A stretch of DNA of 64,000 bases, from the NCBI GenBank assembly GCA_036382775.1, contig DASVHD010000037.1:1-64000 (forward strand), written 5' to 3'. Source of the DNA: a bacterium. Lineage in GTDB: Bacteria; Hydrothermota; Tepidihabitantia; SM23-42; JAOAFX01. Each line of letters starts with the position of its first letter. The stretch's first letter is position 1. The position numbers and the translations under genes were made by a program. The notes beneath the pieces were generated by a model. That model saw only the letters and a program-made list of their open reading frames with translations. It did no database searches and was not told the origin of the DNA. Shown here piece by piece: positions 16,223-27,577 of this stretch.

Positions 16223-17899
16223 ATGGCCGAACTGCTCGATGCCCAGACCAAGCAAGACCTGACCGCCCTGCTGGAGCAGCTGCCAAGGCCGGTCAATATT
16301 ATTTTCTTTACCAAGGAAAAAGACTGCCCCCATTGCCAGGAACAGCAGCAGGTACTCTCGGAAATAACCGCGCTGTCAAGCAAGATCACGCTCACGGTCT
16401 ACGACATGGCCAAGGACAGCATCACCGCTGCCAAGTACGGCATCGCGAGAACGCCCGCCACCGTGATCATCAGCACCAAGGATCACGGCATCAGGCTCTA
16501 CGGCGTGACCGCCGGCTATGAGTTCTCGTCGCTCGTGGAAACCATCATCATGGTAAGTACCGATACTTCGGGCCTGTCGCCGGAGATCGAATCCATAATC
16601 AGGACCATTGACCAGCCCGTGCACCTCGAGGTCATGGTCACCTTGACCTGTCCTTATTGCCCGCGCGCGGTCCACGCCGCTTTCCAACTGGCAATGGTCA
16701 GCGACCAGATAAGCGCCGACGCGGTGGACTCCGGTGAATTCCCCGAAGTGGCGCAGCGCTACGATGTCTCGGGAGTGCCCAAAACGATCATTAACGAAAA
16801 ATTCTCGTTCACCGGCGCGATACCGGTCGAATCGGTCTATCTTGAGATCCTCAAAAATCTGAAACCAGACGAATATAAAAAAGTAAGGGCTTCGATCCAG
16901 GAAGCCCAGGGACACCGCCACGTCCGCCCCGCCGATCCCAAACACACTTATGATATGATCATTGTCGGCGGCGGTCCGGCCGCCTTGTCCGCGGCGGTCT
17001 ATGCGGCAAGAAAAGAACTCGATGTTCTTCTTGTGGCCGACGAACTGGGCGGGCAGATCATCAATACCGCGGTGATCGAGAATTATCTGGGTCTGCCCGG
17101 CATCAGCGGCAAAGAGCTGGCCGAGCAATTCCAGTTCCACGCCGAGCAGTTCCCCATTGCCGAAAAGATCGGTTCACCGGCATCAAAGGTATCGGAAATA
17201 GACGGCATATTCACGGTCAACACGGCGGACGAACAGAGTTTCACCGGCCACACGGTCATATACTGCGCGGGCAAGGAATACCAGAAACTCGGGATTCCGG
17301 GTGAAAACCAATTTGTCGGTCACGGCATTGCTTTCTGCGCGACCTGCGACGCGCCCCTGTACAAGGGGAAAAAGGTCGCGGTGATCGGCGGGGGCAATTC
17401 CGCGCTCACTGCGGCGCGGGATCTTATGATGTACGCCAGCGAGGTTCACCTCGTGCACCGCCGCGATTCATTCAAGGCAGACCCAACCCTGGTAGACGAA
17501 ATAAAAGCATTGAAAAAAGTAATCATCCATTATGAAACCGAGGTGAAGGAGTTCCTCGGCGATGAGAAACTTAAAGGCATGAGGATCTCGACCGCCGGTG
17601 GTGCAAAACCTGAGGATATCGAGGTGAACGGCGTTTTCCTGGAGATCGGGCTGAGCCCGAACACGGCACCGGTGCAGGATCTCGTGCCCTTGAACGCCAA
17701 CCGTGAGATCCCTGTTAACCGCGATAATTCGACCGCGCGGGCGGGATTTTTTGGTGCCGGTGACGCCACCGACGTGGTGGAAAAGCAGATCGTTATCGCC
17801 GCGGCCGAAGGCGCGAAAGCCGCGCTCGCCGCGTACAAATTTCTGGTTGGCAAAAAAGTCTTGAAAAACCTTTCGGCAGCGGATTCATGGACCCAATGA
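16223..17899 (+). CDS. PDO/glutaredoxin-thioredoxin reductase fusion (AhpF-like)
   Basis: 558 residues: two tandem thioredoxin folds (1-115 and 120-225), then an FAD/NADPH thioredoxin-reductase unit (about 240-545). Both folds keep a CxxC (Cys35/Cys38 in CPHC; Cys142/Cys145 in CPYC), as in archaeal-type protein disulfide oxidoreductases; classical AhpF keeps only the second. The reductase has the FAD motif GGGPAA, redox pair Cys372/Cys375 (CATC), NADPH motif GGGNSA and GAGDATDV. It passes electrons from NAD(P)H to disulfides or peroxiredoxins. No ahpC adjoins it. Its 3' end overlaps the next gene by 13 bases. Confidence 0.9.
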   Translation: MAELLDAQTKQDLTALLEQLPRPVNIIFFTKEKDCPHCQEQQQVLSEITALSSKITLTVYDMAKDSITAAKYGIARTPATVIISTKDHGIRLYGVTAGYEFSSLVETIIMVSTDTSGLSPEIESIIRTIDQPVHLEVMVTLTCPYCPRAVHAAFQLAMVSDQISADAVDSGEFPEVAQRYDVSGVPKTIINEKFSFTGAIPVESVYLEILKNLKPDEYKKVRASIQEAQGHRHVRPADPKHTYDMIIVGGGPAALSAAVYAARKELDVLLVADELGGQIINTAVIENYLGLPGISGKELAEQFQFHAEQFPIAEKIGSPASKVSEIDGIFTVNTADEQSFTGHTVIYCAGKEYQKLGIPGENQFVGHGIAFCATCDAPLYKGKKVAVIGGGNSALTAARDLMMYASEVHLVHRRDSFKADPTLVDEIKALKKVIIHYETEVKEFLGDEKLKGMRISTAGGAKPEDIEVNGVFLEIGLSPNTAPVQDLVPLNANREIPVNRDNSTARAGFFGAGDATDVVEKQIVIAAAEGAKAALAAYKFLVGKKVLKNLSAADSWTQ

Positions 17900-20183: not shown

Positions 20184-21422
20184 ATGATACGATTCTGTTT
20201 GTTTATTCTCATGGCTGCTTTAGCAGCCCTGCACGCGGTAACGCCGCTATTCGATGCTCCCATTGCTATCCAGGCCGGCGGTTCGCCGATCAATGTCGGC
20301 TATGGCGGGAACGCATCGCCGTTCATGATCGACTGGGACAGTGATGGCAAGCAGGACCTACTGCTGGGCCAGTTCGATGCCGGGAAGATCCGCTTCTATG
20401 CTAATACCGGGACCAACTACAATCCGGCATTCGGTAGTTTCAGCTATCTGCAGGCTGATGGGGTCGATATATCGCTGAGCTGCGGCTGATGCCAGGGCGC
20501 TACGGTCGCAGTTTGCGACTGGAACCAGGACGGCTATAAAGACCTTATCACCGGAGAGCGTTTAGGTTACTTCCGGTATTTTCGGCGGCTTGCTGCCGGC
20601 ACTCTCACTTTTGTTGGATATATCCAGACCGACGGCGTCAACATAACGACTGCGAATAATTCCTGGCCGTGCGTCTGTGATTACAATGCCGACGGTAAGA
20701 AAGACCTGCTCATTGGACAGGAGGGCATCGGTTCGCCATGCAATGTCTTTGTCTACCTTAACGTCGGGACCAATGCGGCACCGGTCTTTACGGATTCAAC
20801 ACCGGTCCTGTTCAACGGCAGCCCGACCACCTATTACCGCACCATACCCGTTTTGCTGGACCTGGATCTTGATGGCAAAAAAGACATGATCCTGGGCGGC
20901 TGGTACAGCGACGTCCGTTTCTACGCGAACGTCGGCACGAACGCCAATCCGGTCTTCACGAATTACATCTATCTGGTCAACCCCGATTCCTCCGCTTACC
21001 TCAACGGCAATCCGCCGCGCCTTAATTTTACGGACTGGGATGGTGACGGTGACCTCGACATGCTTACCTGCGATTATTACGGGTCGGTCTTTCTGCGCCG
21101 CAATATTTCAGGCGTCAATGTTGAAGAACTCTCAGGCCGGTCGGCCGCACAGGACCGATTCTCCGTCACGCCCAATTTGATCACAAACCGGGCGTTGATC
21201 AAGGTCAATATCGAAAGCCCCGCGTTCGTGCGTCTTGATCTCTACGCTCCTGACGGCAGGAAGGTCGCCTCGCTCCTGAACCGCCATGCGGATGCGGGCG
21301 AATTGCGGTTTACACTGGATCTGAATTCCTTTGAACGGCAGGTACTGAGCAGCGGTGCTTATTTTGTGGTGCTTAAGACGGATAACCGTATTATTACGAG
21401 TAAAGTACAAATCTTGCGCTGA
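20184..21422 (+). CDS. Secreted FG-GAP/VCBS protein with in-frame UGA (putative selenoprotein)
   Basis: 412 codons in one frame, with a single UGA at 20487..20489 (codon 102). Signal peptide MIRFCLFILMAALAALHA. Five FG-GAP/VCBS-type motifs (DWDSDGKQD, DWNQDGYKD, DYNADGKKD, DLDLDGKKD, DWDGDGDLD) run evenly across the UGA, and a T9SS-like C-terminal domain (GAYFVVL...SKVQILR) ends it. The UGA context is SLSCG-UGA-CQGA. A hairpin with an AGUUU apex follows 13 bases later. Strong AAGGAGG before the ATG. Alternatives are a nonsense mutation (for example TGG to TGA) or readthrough. The gene ends in an ordinary UGA. Confidence 0.7.
20503..20521 (+). promoter_or_regulatory. SECIS-like stem-loop after UGA codon 102
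   Basis: CGGTCGCA-GTT-TGCGACTG: 8-bp stem (one G-U), 13 bases after the in-frame UGA. The apical G is 21 bases from UGA, as in bacterial SECIS elements. Confidence 0.5.
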
Positions 21423-22250: not shown

Positions 22251-25200
22251 TTACCTGAGAAGGATGGCTTTCTCCGTCTTCTTCTCGCCGTTTACCTCAA
22301 ACCGGACAAAATACACGCCAGCGGGAACTCGACGACCAATGTCATCTGAACCGTCCCAGATGACATCAGTAGGTAGTACGGAGTAGGTAGTAGGTAGCTC
22401 AAAGGATTTTACCAACCTGCCGGAAGCGTCAAAGATCCGGAGGGATGGATTCCCATTTTGCTCCTTACTACTTACCACATACTTAATTACTGTCTTTCCA
22501 AAGAACGGATTCGGCGACAGCGCGAGGCTTGTCACCAGCATGCTGCCGTTCTGCTCAGCCACGCCTACCAGTCCGTTGAGGTTGCCGACTTCCCAATCGA
22601 GAAGCGCAGGATTCGTCGGAGCCTTTGACGACTTGCGGTAGAACGTGCCCTTCAAACGGATATTCCGATAGGTGTTCGTGTCCAACCCGGACAAATTGAC
22701 CGAATCATACGCTGCGTTCTTGAAAAACCCGGTCGAATTGCCCGGCAATGTACCGTTCGGCACTAATTGCCATGCGCTGCCCGTATAGTATTCGACCTGC
22801 AGACCGATCGAATCGCCGGCCGTTGCCTTGTGGAACACCATCCATCCCCACTTGTTCCGGTTGAAGGTCTTTGACAGTTCCTTGTAATCGATGCCCATAC
22901 CTGTCATCGTGCCATAATCGTTGGAAAGCGTGTAAGTCCGCTTGAGGACGACGTTGTCCGCCGCGTTCGCATACCCCCAGTGCGACGACGCGGTGCTGTC
23001 CGAGAAGAACCAGTCGAACTGCATCGAATCGCACGGCAGCTGCGATGTCAGGCTGACCGTTTGGGTGCCGGCTCCGCTGCTGGAATAAACGACAAGATCG
23101 GTCCACGCCGTCCAGGCGCCGCTTCCGGTCTTCTTGCGGAATTTCAAGCGGTACTTCTCGCCGACCTGGTATATCTGGAATCCATAGCCATACTCAACCT
23201 CCAGGTCATCCGTGATGCCTCCCACATACCACTTGGGCGAGAGCAATTCCTCGTTGTTATTGATCACGCCGCTGCCCGCGTCGTCATCCGAATAGTACGC
23301 GTAGTACGTTCCATAACTCGGCGGCGTATATGATCCAAGATCGCTGGTCGTGCCCACTGTCCACATGTATGAATCACCGTTGCCGTTGACCACGCTCCAG
23401 CCCGACGGGATGCCGGCTACATCAAAGAACTGCTCCTGTATGGTATCCACAACGACTGCGCCCGACGGCACCAGGATCACGCTGTCCCCCTGGATCATCG
23501 TCGCGTTATAGGTATTGTAACTGAACTGCGCGGCCGTTGTCTGAAACCATGAACAGGTGTTGGCCGGCAGACTGGTGTCGACCGTGAACGACCGTGCGGT
23601 CGTATAACTTGTCCAATATCCGGAACCGCTGGGGTCGGAGCATTTCACTTTCCACCAGTAGGTCGTGCCGTTGGTCAAATCGGAAGGGAATGAGAAATTT
23701 ACAACGGCGCCGCTTGCGTAGTTGGCTGTGAGCGAGCTTTCCGGACTGGCGAAAGTCGGGTCGGTATCCCATTTTACGCAGTACCGGATCTGCTCGCCCT
23801 GCGGATCAGTGGAATAGAATGTCAGCACTGGGTTCAGCGCGGACAGCCGCGCGAAATCCATCGGTTTGACCACCGTCGGCATTGCGGGCATGCCGGCGTC
23901 GATGACGATGGCATAGCCTTCGTACGGATAGTGGTTCTTTTTCGTGACCGTGACCCACATCGTGTCGAGCGGGACCATCGCCGTGATCGTGATATTCGCT
24001 ACGCCTGAGCCGTTCGTATTGCCGGTCCCGTATAATCCCGCGTCGCTCTTGCCGTCCAGGCATACCAGCGCGCTCGTGACCGGTGTCGTCCCGTCGCTTT
24101 CCTTGACCGTTACCGTAAAGCTGTTCGTTCCCATCGGAACCATGGCATTATATGTGACCTGCATGGTCGCGGGGATATCGGTCCAGAGCGGCATTTCAGG
24201 ATCGCCGAACAGGTTCAGCTCATAGATACACCAGCGGGTCATATCATACTGATTACCAGAATCAGCATAGGGAACCCAGGCGTCCTTGTCCACGGCCAAT
24301 ATCGGTCCGATGTTATACATGCCGGCATTGAATATTTTCGCATAGAACGTAGTGTCCAGGCGTTCGGAAGGACCCGGGACATACTGCGTGGTATACGCGC
24401 CCCATCCATATCTTGCATTCATCATCGAGGCTACGAGACCGCCGCCTTGCCGGTTCACCAGGTGTTCGGCAAAACAATCAAGGCCCGAAGAAACAAGGTC
24501 CCAGCCGCCGGTCATACAGGCAATGCTGATATTAATGCCCACTTTATCGCCATTGATCAATCCATCCGCAGCGGAGGAACTCAAATACGGCGTACTGCCC
24601 ATGTAGATCCCGTTCTCATCCCCATGGCCTTCCCAGGCGCCCATGCCAAAACCAACATTCATTGAATCGACCATGAGCTGAGGCGATAAGGTGCCGTTCC
24701 TCTCATAGAGTTTACCATCAGTCCAGGTCGCAGCTGGCGTCATCCGGGCGATGGAGTCCTGCATGGGACGCTCTTCGTAACTGGACCAAAGGATCGCCGT
24801 GGGTAAAAGCATTTTACGCAGGTATCCAGTCGGCGGATTTTTTTCATATTTGAACACTTTATAGACAAAATTCTGGGCCAGAGCAACCGTGTAGACCGAT
24901 GCCCGGCCTACATAGACATCATGATACATATTGACATTGTCGCTGAGCTCGCCGTAGGTATGATCACCGTCCGCGTCCCAGTTGCCATTCAGGTCCGAAT
25001 AGTACAGATCCGCGGGGAGGTAATCGCCATCCGGACCGCCGGCAGATGTATACCATCCCTTGCGCGTCGGTACCAGGTTCTGACCGGTCGAATTGTAGTC
25101 GCCTGAACCGCCCAGCAGGAAATACATTGATCCCCATGTCGCATAGGCATCGATGATAAAATTCCTGACTTTCTCTGCCAGGTCATAGCCGGTATAGTTG

Positions 25201-26006
25201 CTGTTGATATAGGATACCAGGACGACGGTGGCCGGAATGCCTTTCTTGGTCTTCCAATTGGCCAGGCGCTGCAAAACCGTGTCCACGGGCGGCGCGCTGA
25301 TCACAACGTACTGATAATTCCCCGGCGGCAATGCCCTCGATCCCATGCCAAGCCTGACCTCGGGCGCGAACTTATCAACGGCCCCGGGGTTGGCGACGAT
25401 CGAACGGACTTCCTGTCCGGATACCTGCTGCTGCAGTAAGGTCGGGATCCAGGCATCCACCTGGTGCTCTTTGTAGGTCAAACGATATGTCAGTTTCGTG
25501 ACCAGTGTCAACTTCTGTTTCTTAGGCTGGTACGTCAACGGGTATATTTCCACGTGCGCGATACGGTAGCCGTTCAACGTGCCGGCACCGGTCAGCCTGA
25601 TATTTATTTCGGGATAACTATTTTCTGATCCATAGATAAGTGAATTCGGTTTCGATACCTTGGGGGTAAAAACTTTACCCGGCATTGGCAAGGGCACATC
25701 GTGTTGCGTAGGGAGAATATTGTAAGTGCCCGGAATATCTGCTGCCTCTTCCGAGATCAATTCCACTGATACCGGATTAGCACCGGCCGGAATTACCAGT
25801 GCTTGAACGACCCTTGGCAGCCTGGGCTCGCCAAGCTTGGTACCGCTGGGGTACCCTTTCAGGTCAACGACATCGTAGTTGTCAGCGGCGGTGAAATACA
25901 GATCTCCCGGCGAGAAACTCACGGTCTGAACGATCTCACCCGCCCATAACATGCCGGTGATCACGACTCCCAGCATTACATATTTTATGACACCCGCTTT
26001 TATCAT
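22251..26006 (-). CDS. Secreted C25 (gingipain-type) cysteine peptidase with T9SS-like C-terminal domain
   Basis: 1251 residues. Signal peptide (1-23), propeptide (about 25-225, with the RLPRVV motif typical of C25 prodomains), C25 catalytic domain (about 230-620) with His461 in EGHGDENG and Cys497 in IACMTGGWD, then fibronectin-III/Ig-like repeats (about 625-1150) and a sorting domain (GVYFVRF...TEKAILLR). The catalytic dyad is intact. It is an extracellular or surface endopeptidase. AAGGAGG precedes the ATG. It serves as the reference for its smaller neighbour, in which the equivalent Cys codon is UGA. Confidence 0.92.
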   Translation of the reverse strand: MIKAGVIKYVMLGVVITGMLWAGEIVQTVSFSPGDLYFTAADNYDVVDLKGYPSGTKLGEPRLPRVVQALVIPAGANPVSVELISEEAADIPGTYNILPTQHDVPLPMPGKVFTPKVSKPNSLIYGSENSYPEINIRLTGAGTLNGYRIAHVEIYPLTYQPKKQKLTLVTKLTYRLTYKEHQVDAWIPTLLQQQVSGQEVRSIVANPGAVDKFAPEVRLGMGSRALPPGNYQYVVISAPPVDTVLQRLANWKTKKGIPATVVLVSYINSNYTGYDLAEKVRNFIIDAYATWGSMYFLLGGSGDYNSTGQNLVPTRKGWYTSAGGPDGDYLPADLYYSDLNGNWDADGDHTYGELSDNVNMYHDVYVGRASVYTVALAQNFVYKVFKYEKNPPTGYLRKMLLPTAILWSSYEERPMQDSIARMTPAATWTDGKLYERNGTLSPQLMVDSMNVGFGMGAWEGHGDENGIYMGSTPYLSSSAADGLINGDKVGINISIACMTGGWDLVSSGLDCFAEHLVNRQGGGLVASMMNARYGWGAYTTQYVPGPSERLDTTFYAKIFNAGMYNIGPILAVDKDAWVPYADSGNQYDMTRWCIYELNLFGDPEMPLWTDIPATMQVTYNAMVPMGTNSFTVTVKESDGTTPVTSALVCLDGKSDAGLYGTGNTNGSGVANITITAMVPLDTMWVTVTKKNHYPYEGYAIVIDAGMPAMPTVVKPMDFARLSALNPVLTFYSTDPQGEQIRYCVKWDTDPTFASPESSLTANYASGAVVNFSFPSDLTNGTTYWWKVKCSDPSGSGYWTSYTTARSFTVDTSLPANTCSWFQTTAAQFSYNTYNATMIQGDSVILVPSGAVVVDTIQEQFFDVAGIPSGWSVVNGNGDSYMWTVGTTSDLGSYTPPSYGTYYAYYSDDDAGSGVINNNEELLSPKWYVGGITDDLEVEYGYGFQIYQVGEKYRLKFRKKTGSGAWTAWTDLVVYSSSGAGTQTVSLTSQLPCDSMQFDWFFSDSTASSHWGYANAADNVVLKRTYTLSNDYGTMTGMGIDYKELSKTFNRNKWGWMVFHKATAGDSIGLQVEYYTGSAWQLVPNGTLPGNSTGFFKNAAYDSVNLSGLDTNTYRNIRLKGTFYRKSSKAPTNPALLDWEVGNLNGLVGVAEQNGSMLVTSLALSPNPFFGKTVIKYVVSSKEQNGNPSLRIFDASGRLVKSFELPTTYSVLPTDVIWDGSDDIGRRVPAGVYFVRFEVNGEKKTEKAILLR

Positions 26007-26131: not shown

Positions 26132-27577
26132 TCACTGACAGCCGGTGATGATGATTTTTTCTAACGATCCATAGCGCTGGTCGGGAACTTCATGATCGCG
26201 CTGGAAATTCAAGTTTACAAAATAGACGCCGGCCGGCAAATCGATTATCCTGCCGGCAGAAACGTTATGTTCCTTGAAAACACAACGGCCTGACGCATTC
26301 CAGATTATAACATCGGCAGATCCCGGAACCTTCAGTTCCTGGCAGATACCGGGTAGAACACGGATATCCCGGGAGACCGGTATTGCACCGCGGCCTTCAT
26401 TGATATCCACAATGCCGGCATATCTCAGCCGCAGCGCCGGGTCACCGATCAGGTTGTTTAAGACTGCCGGCCCGTACAGCGAATCGACCGGGAAATACGT
26501 GCTGATGATGCGGCATTTCGCGTCATACACGATCCGGCCCAGGACGCGTTCATTTTCAACGTATATCTTCTTAAGCATCTCCCCGTATAGATAATGGTGG
26601 CCGGTCGGGGTGCCGCAGGGATTTGGCGCCGTGGTAGCGATCGCGCCCCCGGTTGCGTATTCCACCAGCTGTTCGGCGAGACACTCCGAACTGGAGTTGT
26701 CAAAATATCCCTCGGTTCAGCCCCGGCCGAACGAAACGGGATACACCTGGTTGCTCAAGCTCGCGATATCAATACCCATGAACAGGGTGTAAGTTACACC
26801 GATCCATGCCGGCGGCTGGGCGCCATGGCAAGCAGGCATGATGATGGCTGCGCCGTTATTGATCGCCTGGATATGACGAGCGCGCAGGCTGGGTGTGTTT
26901 CCCTCGGATTCGTATATTTTTACGATCGAGTCGCCTGCCGGCTGGAAAAAGTTTACAATGTACTGGTCTGCATATATTTGCCGGTCGGTTGACGAATTCA
27001 GGATAACAGTCCTTTGCCATGGTCCGGCTGAATCCCCGGTCTCGTAATTTATTATTTTATTCACGACGTTCTGCGCCATCACCGCGGAGTTGACCGCCAG
27101 ACGGCCGATGATCATATCCGGCACGGAATCGTTGCCTTCCAGCGTTACATACCAGTTGTCGGCGCCATGCTGGGTAATGCCGCCGGTGTAAGGATAGTTG
27201 AATTTTGGAAAGGTCTTTACCGGCACATAATCATTGGCGCCGCCGCCGCGCTGGGCGTCGCCGACCAGTAGTATGTAGGTAGGCCGGGGATTCCAGTAAT
27301 TGTAGATCCGTTCCATGCAGAGACGGATCGACATCGCCGGGCTGGTATCGGGAAATGTCGAATATATCAGGTCGGTCTGCGCCATTTTTACCTGCAAACC
27401 AAGGCTGTCCCGTAACCGGCATAGCGGCGTGATAGCGTTCGTGAAATCAGGGTGTACTGCGATGAAATAATCGGCGCCGTTATTGAACAGCGAATCCGGC
27501 GTCGTGATCAAATACTGAGCGTACAGGGGGACCAATGCGATGAACAATATACCCGGTATTTTCCTATTAATTGTCAT
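26132..27577 (-). CDS. C25-type peptidase with UGA at the catalytic Cys position (putative selenocysteine peptidase)
   Basis: 482 codons in one frame, with a single UGA at 26717..26719 (codon 287). Signal peptide MTINRKIPGILFIALVPLYAQ; no large prodomain; C25 domain (about 25-390); T9SS-like tail (about 405-481, GVYFVNL). Before the UGA: LLVGDAQ, PDMIIGRLAV and the catalytic His251 in CHGAQPPAW. After it: TEGYFDNSSSECLAEQLVEY, the normal sequence following the catalytic Cys of C25 enzymes. Aligned to the neighbour, U-TEGYFD matches C-MTGGWD, and His-to-Cys/UGA spacing is 36 residues in both. A bulged hairpin follows. Selenocysteine is the best explanation; a nonsense mutation is the alternative. 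Confidence 0.82.
26680..26701 (-). promoter_or_regulatory. SECIS-like bulged stem-loop after UGA codon 287
   Basis: Minus strand GAC-(A bulge)-ACTCC, loop AGTTC, GGAGT-GTC: an 8-bp stem with one bulged base, starting 15 bases after UGA. The apical G is 25 bases from UGA. The AGUU apex matches that in the FG-GAP gene. Confidence 0.6.

Follow-up and report, generated by a model that had tools for sequence, protein, structure and literature searches.

In the 64,000-nucleotide stretch of contig DASVHD010000037.1 analyzed here (referred to as the window), a gene of an uncultured WOR-3/Stahlbacteria bacterium encodes a homolog of the C25 peptidases (gingipain/PorU type, with a caspase-like fold) in which an in-frame UGA, codon 287, occupies the position of the catalytic cysteine. 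Comparative analysis indicates that selenocysteine (Sec) is almost certainly inserted at this codon of the C25-fold protein, and that the product is probably a working peptidase with a Sec nucleophile. Together with orthologs from four other genomes, the gene makes up a new selenoprotein family. This putatively exported, WOR-3/Stahlbacteria-specific C25 subfamily, which has retained Sec and in which no reversion to Cys was found, is likely to contain the first natural protease that uses Sec as its catalytic nucleophile. An earlier note on this DNA had proposed a candidate selenocysteine protease at this locus, and the proposal now has strong computational support.

The gene, its elements, and its nearest C25 neighbor are positioned in the window as follows (SECIS, selenocysteine insertion sequence).

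26132–27577, minus strand: coding sequence of the Sec-containing C25 peptidase homolog, 481 residues with U287, stop codon TGA
27515–27577, minus strand: signal-peptide-like N terminus, residues 1–21, judged from the sequence by eye
26426–27469, minus strand: Peptidase C25 domain (PF01364), residues 37–384, by Pfam
26825–26827, minus strand: codon of the catalytic His, His251, in the motif CHGAQPP, matching His211 of RgpB by alignment
26717–26719, minus strand: in-frame TGA, codon 287, in the catalytic-Cys column (Cys244 of RgpB) by alignment
26680–26701, minus strand: SECIS-like hairpin GACAACTCCAGTTCGGAGTGTC, which begins 15 nt downstream of the UGA and has a bulged A and an apical AGUUC loop
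26615–26617, minus strand: Cys321, candidate resolving Cys, aligned next to Trp284 of RgpB
26207–26332, minus strand: possible type IX secretion sorting domain, residues 416–457, a weak profile match
22251–26006, minus strand: adjacent Cys-type C25 paralog with His461 and Cys497, by Pfam and alignment

Results

UGA occupies the catalytic cysteine position of a C25 domain

When TGA is read as U, the minus strand from position 27577 to 26132 translates into a 481-residue product with U287 and a terminal TGA. This agrees with the single frame, interrupted solely by UGA at codon 287, that the earlier note had described without giving its strand. In the open reading frame listing, the gene had been split at the UGA into two false fragments, as ordinary gene calling does with such genes.

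The product matches the Peptidase C25 family (PF01364) with a score of 171.6 bits (cut-off 23) over residues 37–384, a region that spans the UGA. In RgpB, His211 and Cys244 form the catalytic dyad. When a profile of the new family was compared with solved structures, it matched gingipain R (1cvr, E 1.5e-16), with His251 opposite His211 and the UGA opposite Cys244. The spacing between His and nucleophile is, as previously noted, 36 residues both in this protein (His251–U287) and in the adjacent paralog (His461–Cys497). His251 lies in the (G/x)HG motif of the C25 catalytic His and is invariant in the five Sec members, which also retain the C25 motif G-x-F-D around the nucleophile; in 5/5 of them, UGA (Sec) replaces the catalytic Cys. 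Judged by homology, the protein is a Sec variant of C25 and, strictly speaking, falls outside the cysteine peptidases.

Orthologs carry UGA in the same column

When 147 genomes from the phylum were searched (the window genome is designated G000), four orthologs were identified, in G081, G109, G117, and G118, that are 44–62% identical to the window gene by tblastn and 42–59% identical over the full alignment. Each of these contains one internal stop only, a TGA, and all five TGAs, from five genomes and four genera, fall in one alignment column within the motif (R/K)G-U-T(D/E)GYFDN. The presence of TGA as the sole in-frame stop of four orthologs, in the same column, excludes chance. For pairs with unsaturated synonymous divergence (dS), the ratio of nonsynonymous to synonymous substitution rates (dN/dS) was 0.11–0.17 upstream of the UGA and 0.12–0.33 downstream of it, and these low values show that both halves of the gene are under purifying selection.

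Of 41 C25 domains placed in a tree, the five with UGA group as a single clade (support 100/100), and Cys is present at the column in 36/36 of the others. The comparison of homologs by tBLASTn that the earlier note had called for gave UGA at the column in the orthologs and Cys in all other aligned C25 relatives; a sense codon or a third residue at this position, named there as evidence that would speak against Sec, was present in none of the orthologs found. The family profile scored the five Sec members at 792–895 bits and the next C25 protein at 141 bits, with no stop among the other matches listed.

A Cys version of the subfamily turned up neither in the genomes of the phylum nor in a pattern scan of 84,980 species, which can detect just those sequences that closely match two short motifs. 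The alignment-based pattern scan recovered two of the UGA orthologs, under the public names Candidatus Stahlbacteria CSMAG_2384 and a WOR-3 lake-sediment bin, and a scan with patterns derived from a single protein, which are too specific, recovered no relative. Viral contigs and plasmids contained no copies of the gene. No operon partners common to all members were seen, and an HtrA-like protease adjoins the Sec gene in both G117 and G118.

A SECIS-like hairpin follows the UGA codon

The stem-loop noticed earlier, which starts 15 nt downstream of the UGA and has one bulged base (A) and an AGUUC loop, was confirmed; its layout in the window gene is GACA-A-CUCC-AGUUC-GGAG-UGUC. An AGUU apical loop lies 24 nt after the UGA in 5/5 Sec-C25 genes, on stems of 5–7 base pairs. 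When stem stability was compared with that of synonymous recodings, an excess was seen in three of the five genes (4/300, 0/300, and 1/300). An AGUU loop also follows the UGA in 7/10 selD genes from the five genomes and their sisters. Across the loci examined, an AGUU hairpin at this spacing was present at 8/5481 TGA sites; five of these are the C25 genes, one is in a selD gene, one is associated with a short reading frame, and one belongs to a second candidate in the window that is described below.

The host genome encodes selenocysteine machinery

The window genome (3.06 Mb in 51 contigs, 95.6% complete) contains the Sec machinery for which the earlier note had suggested a search. On contig C48, selA and selB are side by side with a tRNA-Sec gene (anticodon UCA) nearby, and there are two selD genes (C48, L033; C16, L034) with one in-frame TGA each. 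Based on the presence of selA, selB, tRNA-Sec(UCA), and selD, the organism very probably recodes UGA. The same set of genes, again including selD with UGA, is found in G081, G109, and G117. Two selD genes, of two SECIS types, are also frequent in sister genomes, and the G081 bin contains two selB and two tRNA-Sec genes (G081:C235, G081:C105), reflecting either a true duplication or a mixed bin. With these genes, the window gene displays the features by which selenoproteins are recognized, namely UGA at a conserved functional Cys, conservation of the UGA across species, sel genes, and a SECIS hairpin with G in its apical loop.

Proposed route to an exported Sec peptidase

In the proposed pathway, SelB carrying Sec-tRNA(UCA) would recognize the AGUU-loop hairpin just 3′ of the UGA, and Sec would be inserted at codon 287 during translation. 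The protein would be exported by a type IX system. Its selenolate would be activated by His251 and make the nucleophilic attack on the scissile peptide bond, the role that the thiolate has in gingipains. The earlier note had considered both the signal peptide and the C-terminal domain to be intact. A signal-peptide-like start is indeed visible; the C-terminal sorting domain is weakly supported, with weak matches to both TIGR04183 (21 bits, cut-off 23) and PF18962 (E 0.11), and sorting-domain structures appear among the matches of the family profile.

Assessment of alternative explanations

Several observations weigh against a Sec-containing peptidase. The hairpins of G117 (69/300) and G118 (118/300) are no more stable than those of synonymous recodings, and the hairpin shows no significant column-wise covariation, since pairing in the stem occurs in two registers. 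An AlphaFold2 model built from four sequences was poor (mean predicted local distance difference test score 47), and no geometry was drawn from it. The G118 bin (88% complete, 760 contigs) contains selA, and searches of it recovered no selB, selD, or tRNA-Sec. Most likely these genes fall in an assembly gap, because the congener G117 has them; a recent loss in G118 is the alternative.

The UGA could instead be a nonsense mutation at the catalytic codon of an ordinary pseudogene, or a sequencing or assembly error. Decayed C25 genes do occur in this lineage, including one in G081 (G081:C275, frameshift and TGA, L103) and, in the sister genome G115, a truncated, frameshifted remnant of a Sec-C25 gene (L078, G115:C271, about 1659–1960); G115 still has selA, selB, and selD. 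Among ∼98 C25 matches in the five genomes, internal stops outside the family are present in two only, one a TAA and one a TGA, and the latter is in a frameshifted gene, two codons past the Cys. Genuine decay in the lineage takes the form of frameshift and truncation, and neither is seen in any of the five intact genes. The same TGA is present in five genomes within a frame under purifying selection, and the pseudogene reading, already very improbable, is refuted by the four orthologs whose sole stop is a TGA in the identical column. An in-frame TGA within a conserved gene would also be accounted for if the window genome read UGA as Trp, Gly, or Cys. Such a reassignment is the least probable of the explanations considered, as TGA terminates 8/24 long stop-to-stop frames in the window and the Sec-C25 gene as well, a usage that contradicts reassignment. 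In addition, tRNA-Sec and selB are present, and none of the remaining C25 genes in the genome has an internal TGA. It is also conceivable that the UGA acts as a selenium-dependent switch, with low selenium giving a functional truncated product that lacks the nucleophile. This proposal is compatible with all of the sequence data, but the truncated product would end within the C25 domain and conservation extends across the C-terminal part of the protein, so that we regard a switch as improbable.

The main rival to a Sec peptidase accepts Sec insertion and assigns the C25 fold a redox function, in which a Sec287–Cys321 selenenylsulfide would serve a secreted thiol peroxidase, a reductase, or a redox-switched peptidase. 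All five Sec members have Cys53 and Cys321, residues found in 0/36 and 1/36 Cys-type C25 domains, respectively, and Cys321 aligns next to Trp284 of RgpB, near the active site. Because Cys321 is clade-specific and near the active site by alignment, a selenenylsulfide with Sec287 is conceivable. Also in favor of this explanation, the majority of selenoproteins in prokaryotes are regarded as redox enzymes (PMC13188914). On the other hand, the catalytic His and the G-x-F-D motif are retained, the protein has no thioredoxin-like or CxxU motif, and the placement of Cys321 comes from alignment only, with a poor structure model. A redox function is, on this evidence, unlikely, and a peptidase with a Sec nucleophile is preferred.

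Other features of the window and its genome

A second candidate selenoprotein is located at 20184–21422 on the plus strand, where a 412-residue frame for a secreted FG-GAP-repeat protein is broken only by a TGA at 20487–20489. This TGA lies in the motif SCG-U-CQG and is followed by a 7-bp AGUU-loop hairpin whose stem stability is not exceptional compared with synonymous recodings (26/300), making this locus a lead only. At 16223–17899, also on the plus strand, a gene that fuses thioredoxin-like domains to a pyridine-nucleotide-disulfide reductase domain precedes one for an aspartyl-protease/PDZ protein. The 3-Mb window genome contains 19 C25 peptidase domains, several of them in tandem on contig C50, and many of these tandem copies seem to have an altered catalytic-His motif.

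Discussion

Redox chemistry is the usual explanation for the use of Sec. If a Sec nucleophile has been kept in a protease over deep divergence, it raises the question of what benefit selenium brings to peptide-bond hydrolysis. Possible benefits include a lower pKa, greater nucleophilicity, and protection from irreversible oxidation in the extracellular environment. With such an enzyme, the selenoproteome would gain a protease class.

In agreement with the earlier note, whose author knew of no Sec-containing C25 protease, no C25 or other cysteine protease with Sec was found in the literature searched, the coverage of which was incomplete, so that priority is not fully excluded. In a 2026 inventory covering 119 families of prokaryotic selenoproteins (PMC13188914), the terms peptidase, protease, caspase, hydrolase, C25, and gingipain do not appear. 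The deep-Sep study (PMC12013277) lists a PyrG-type glutamine amidotransferase. In the Global Ocean Sampling survey, Sec was predicted in trypsin-like and MucD serine-protease homologs (PMC2398784). Those proteins are likewise predicted selenoproteins in protease families, but they are serine proteases in which Sec occupies the position of a conserved Cys read as redox-related and not that of the nucleophile.

The SelD proteins of the same genomes resemble the Sec-C25 family in having a recoded UGA followed by an AGUU-loop SECIS at similar spacing, but SelD is a selenophosphate synthetase and cytosolic. The best NCBIfam match of the window protein is to PorU, the type IX secretion sortase (NF033707; Protein Data Bank (PDB) 6za2), with which it has the C25 domain in common; it is not a PorU equivalog, since it scores 81.7 bits against a curated cut-off of 420 and has 481 residues compared with the 1095 positions of the model. 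NCBIfam contained no model matching a Sec-C25 family. The Cys-type C25 proteins of WOR-3/Stahlbacteria, including the neighbor at 22251–26006, have the same domain and dyad positions but carry Cys in the nucleophile column, and this neighbor is not the closest relative of the Sec gene. Specificity for Arg is conferred in RgpB by Asp163, a position that is not conserved here in the alignment, so that the cleavage specificity of the Sec protein cannot be read from RgpB. With gingipain R/RgpB itself (MEROPS C25; PDB 1cvr and 4ief), the 481-residue protein shares the positions of the catalytic dyad, with Sec predicted in place of Cys.
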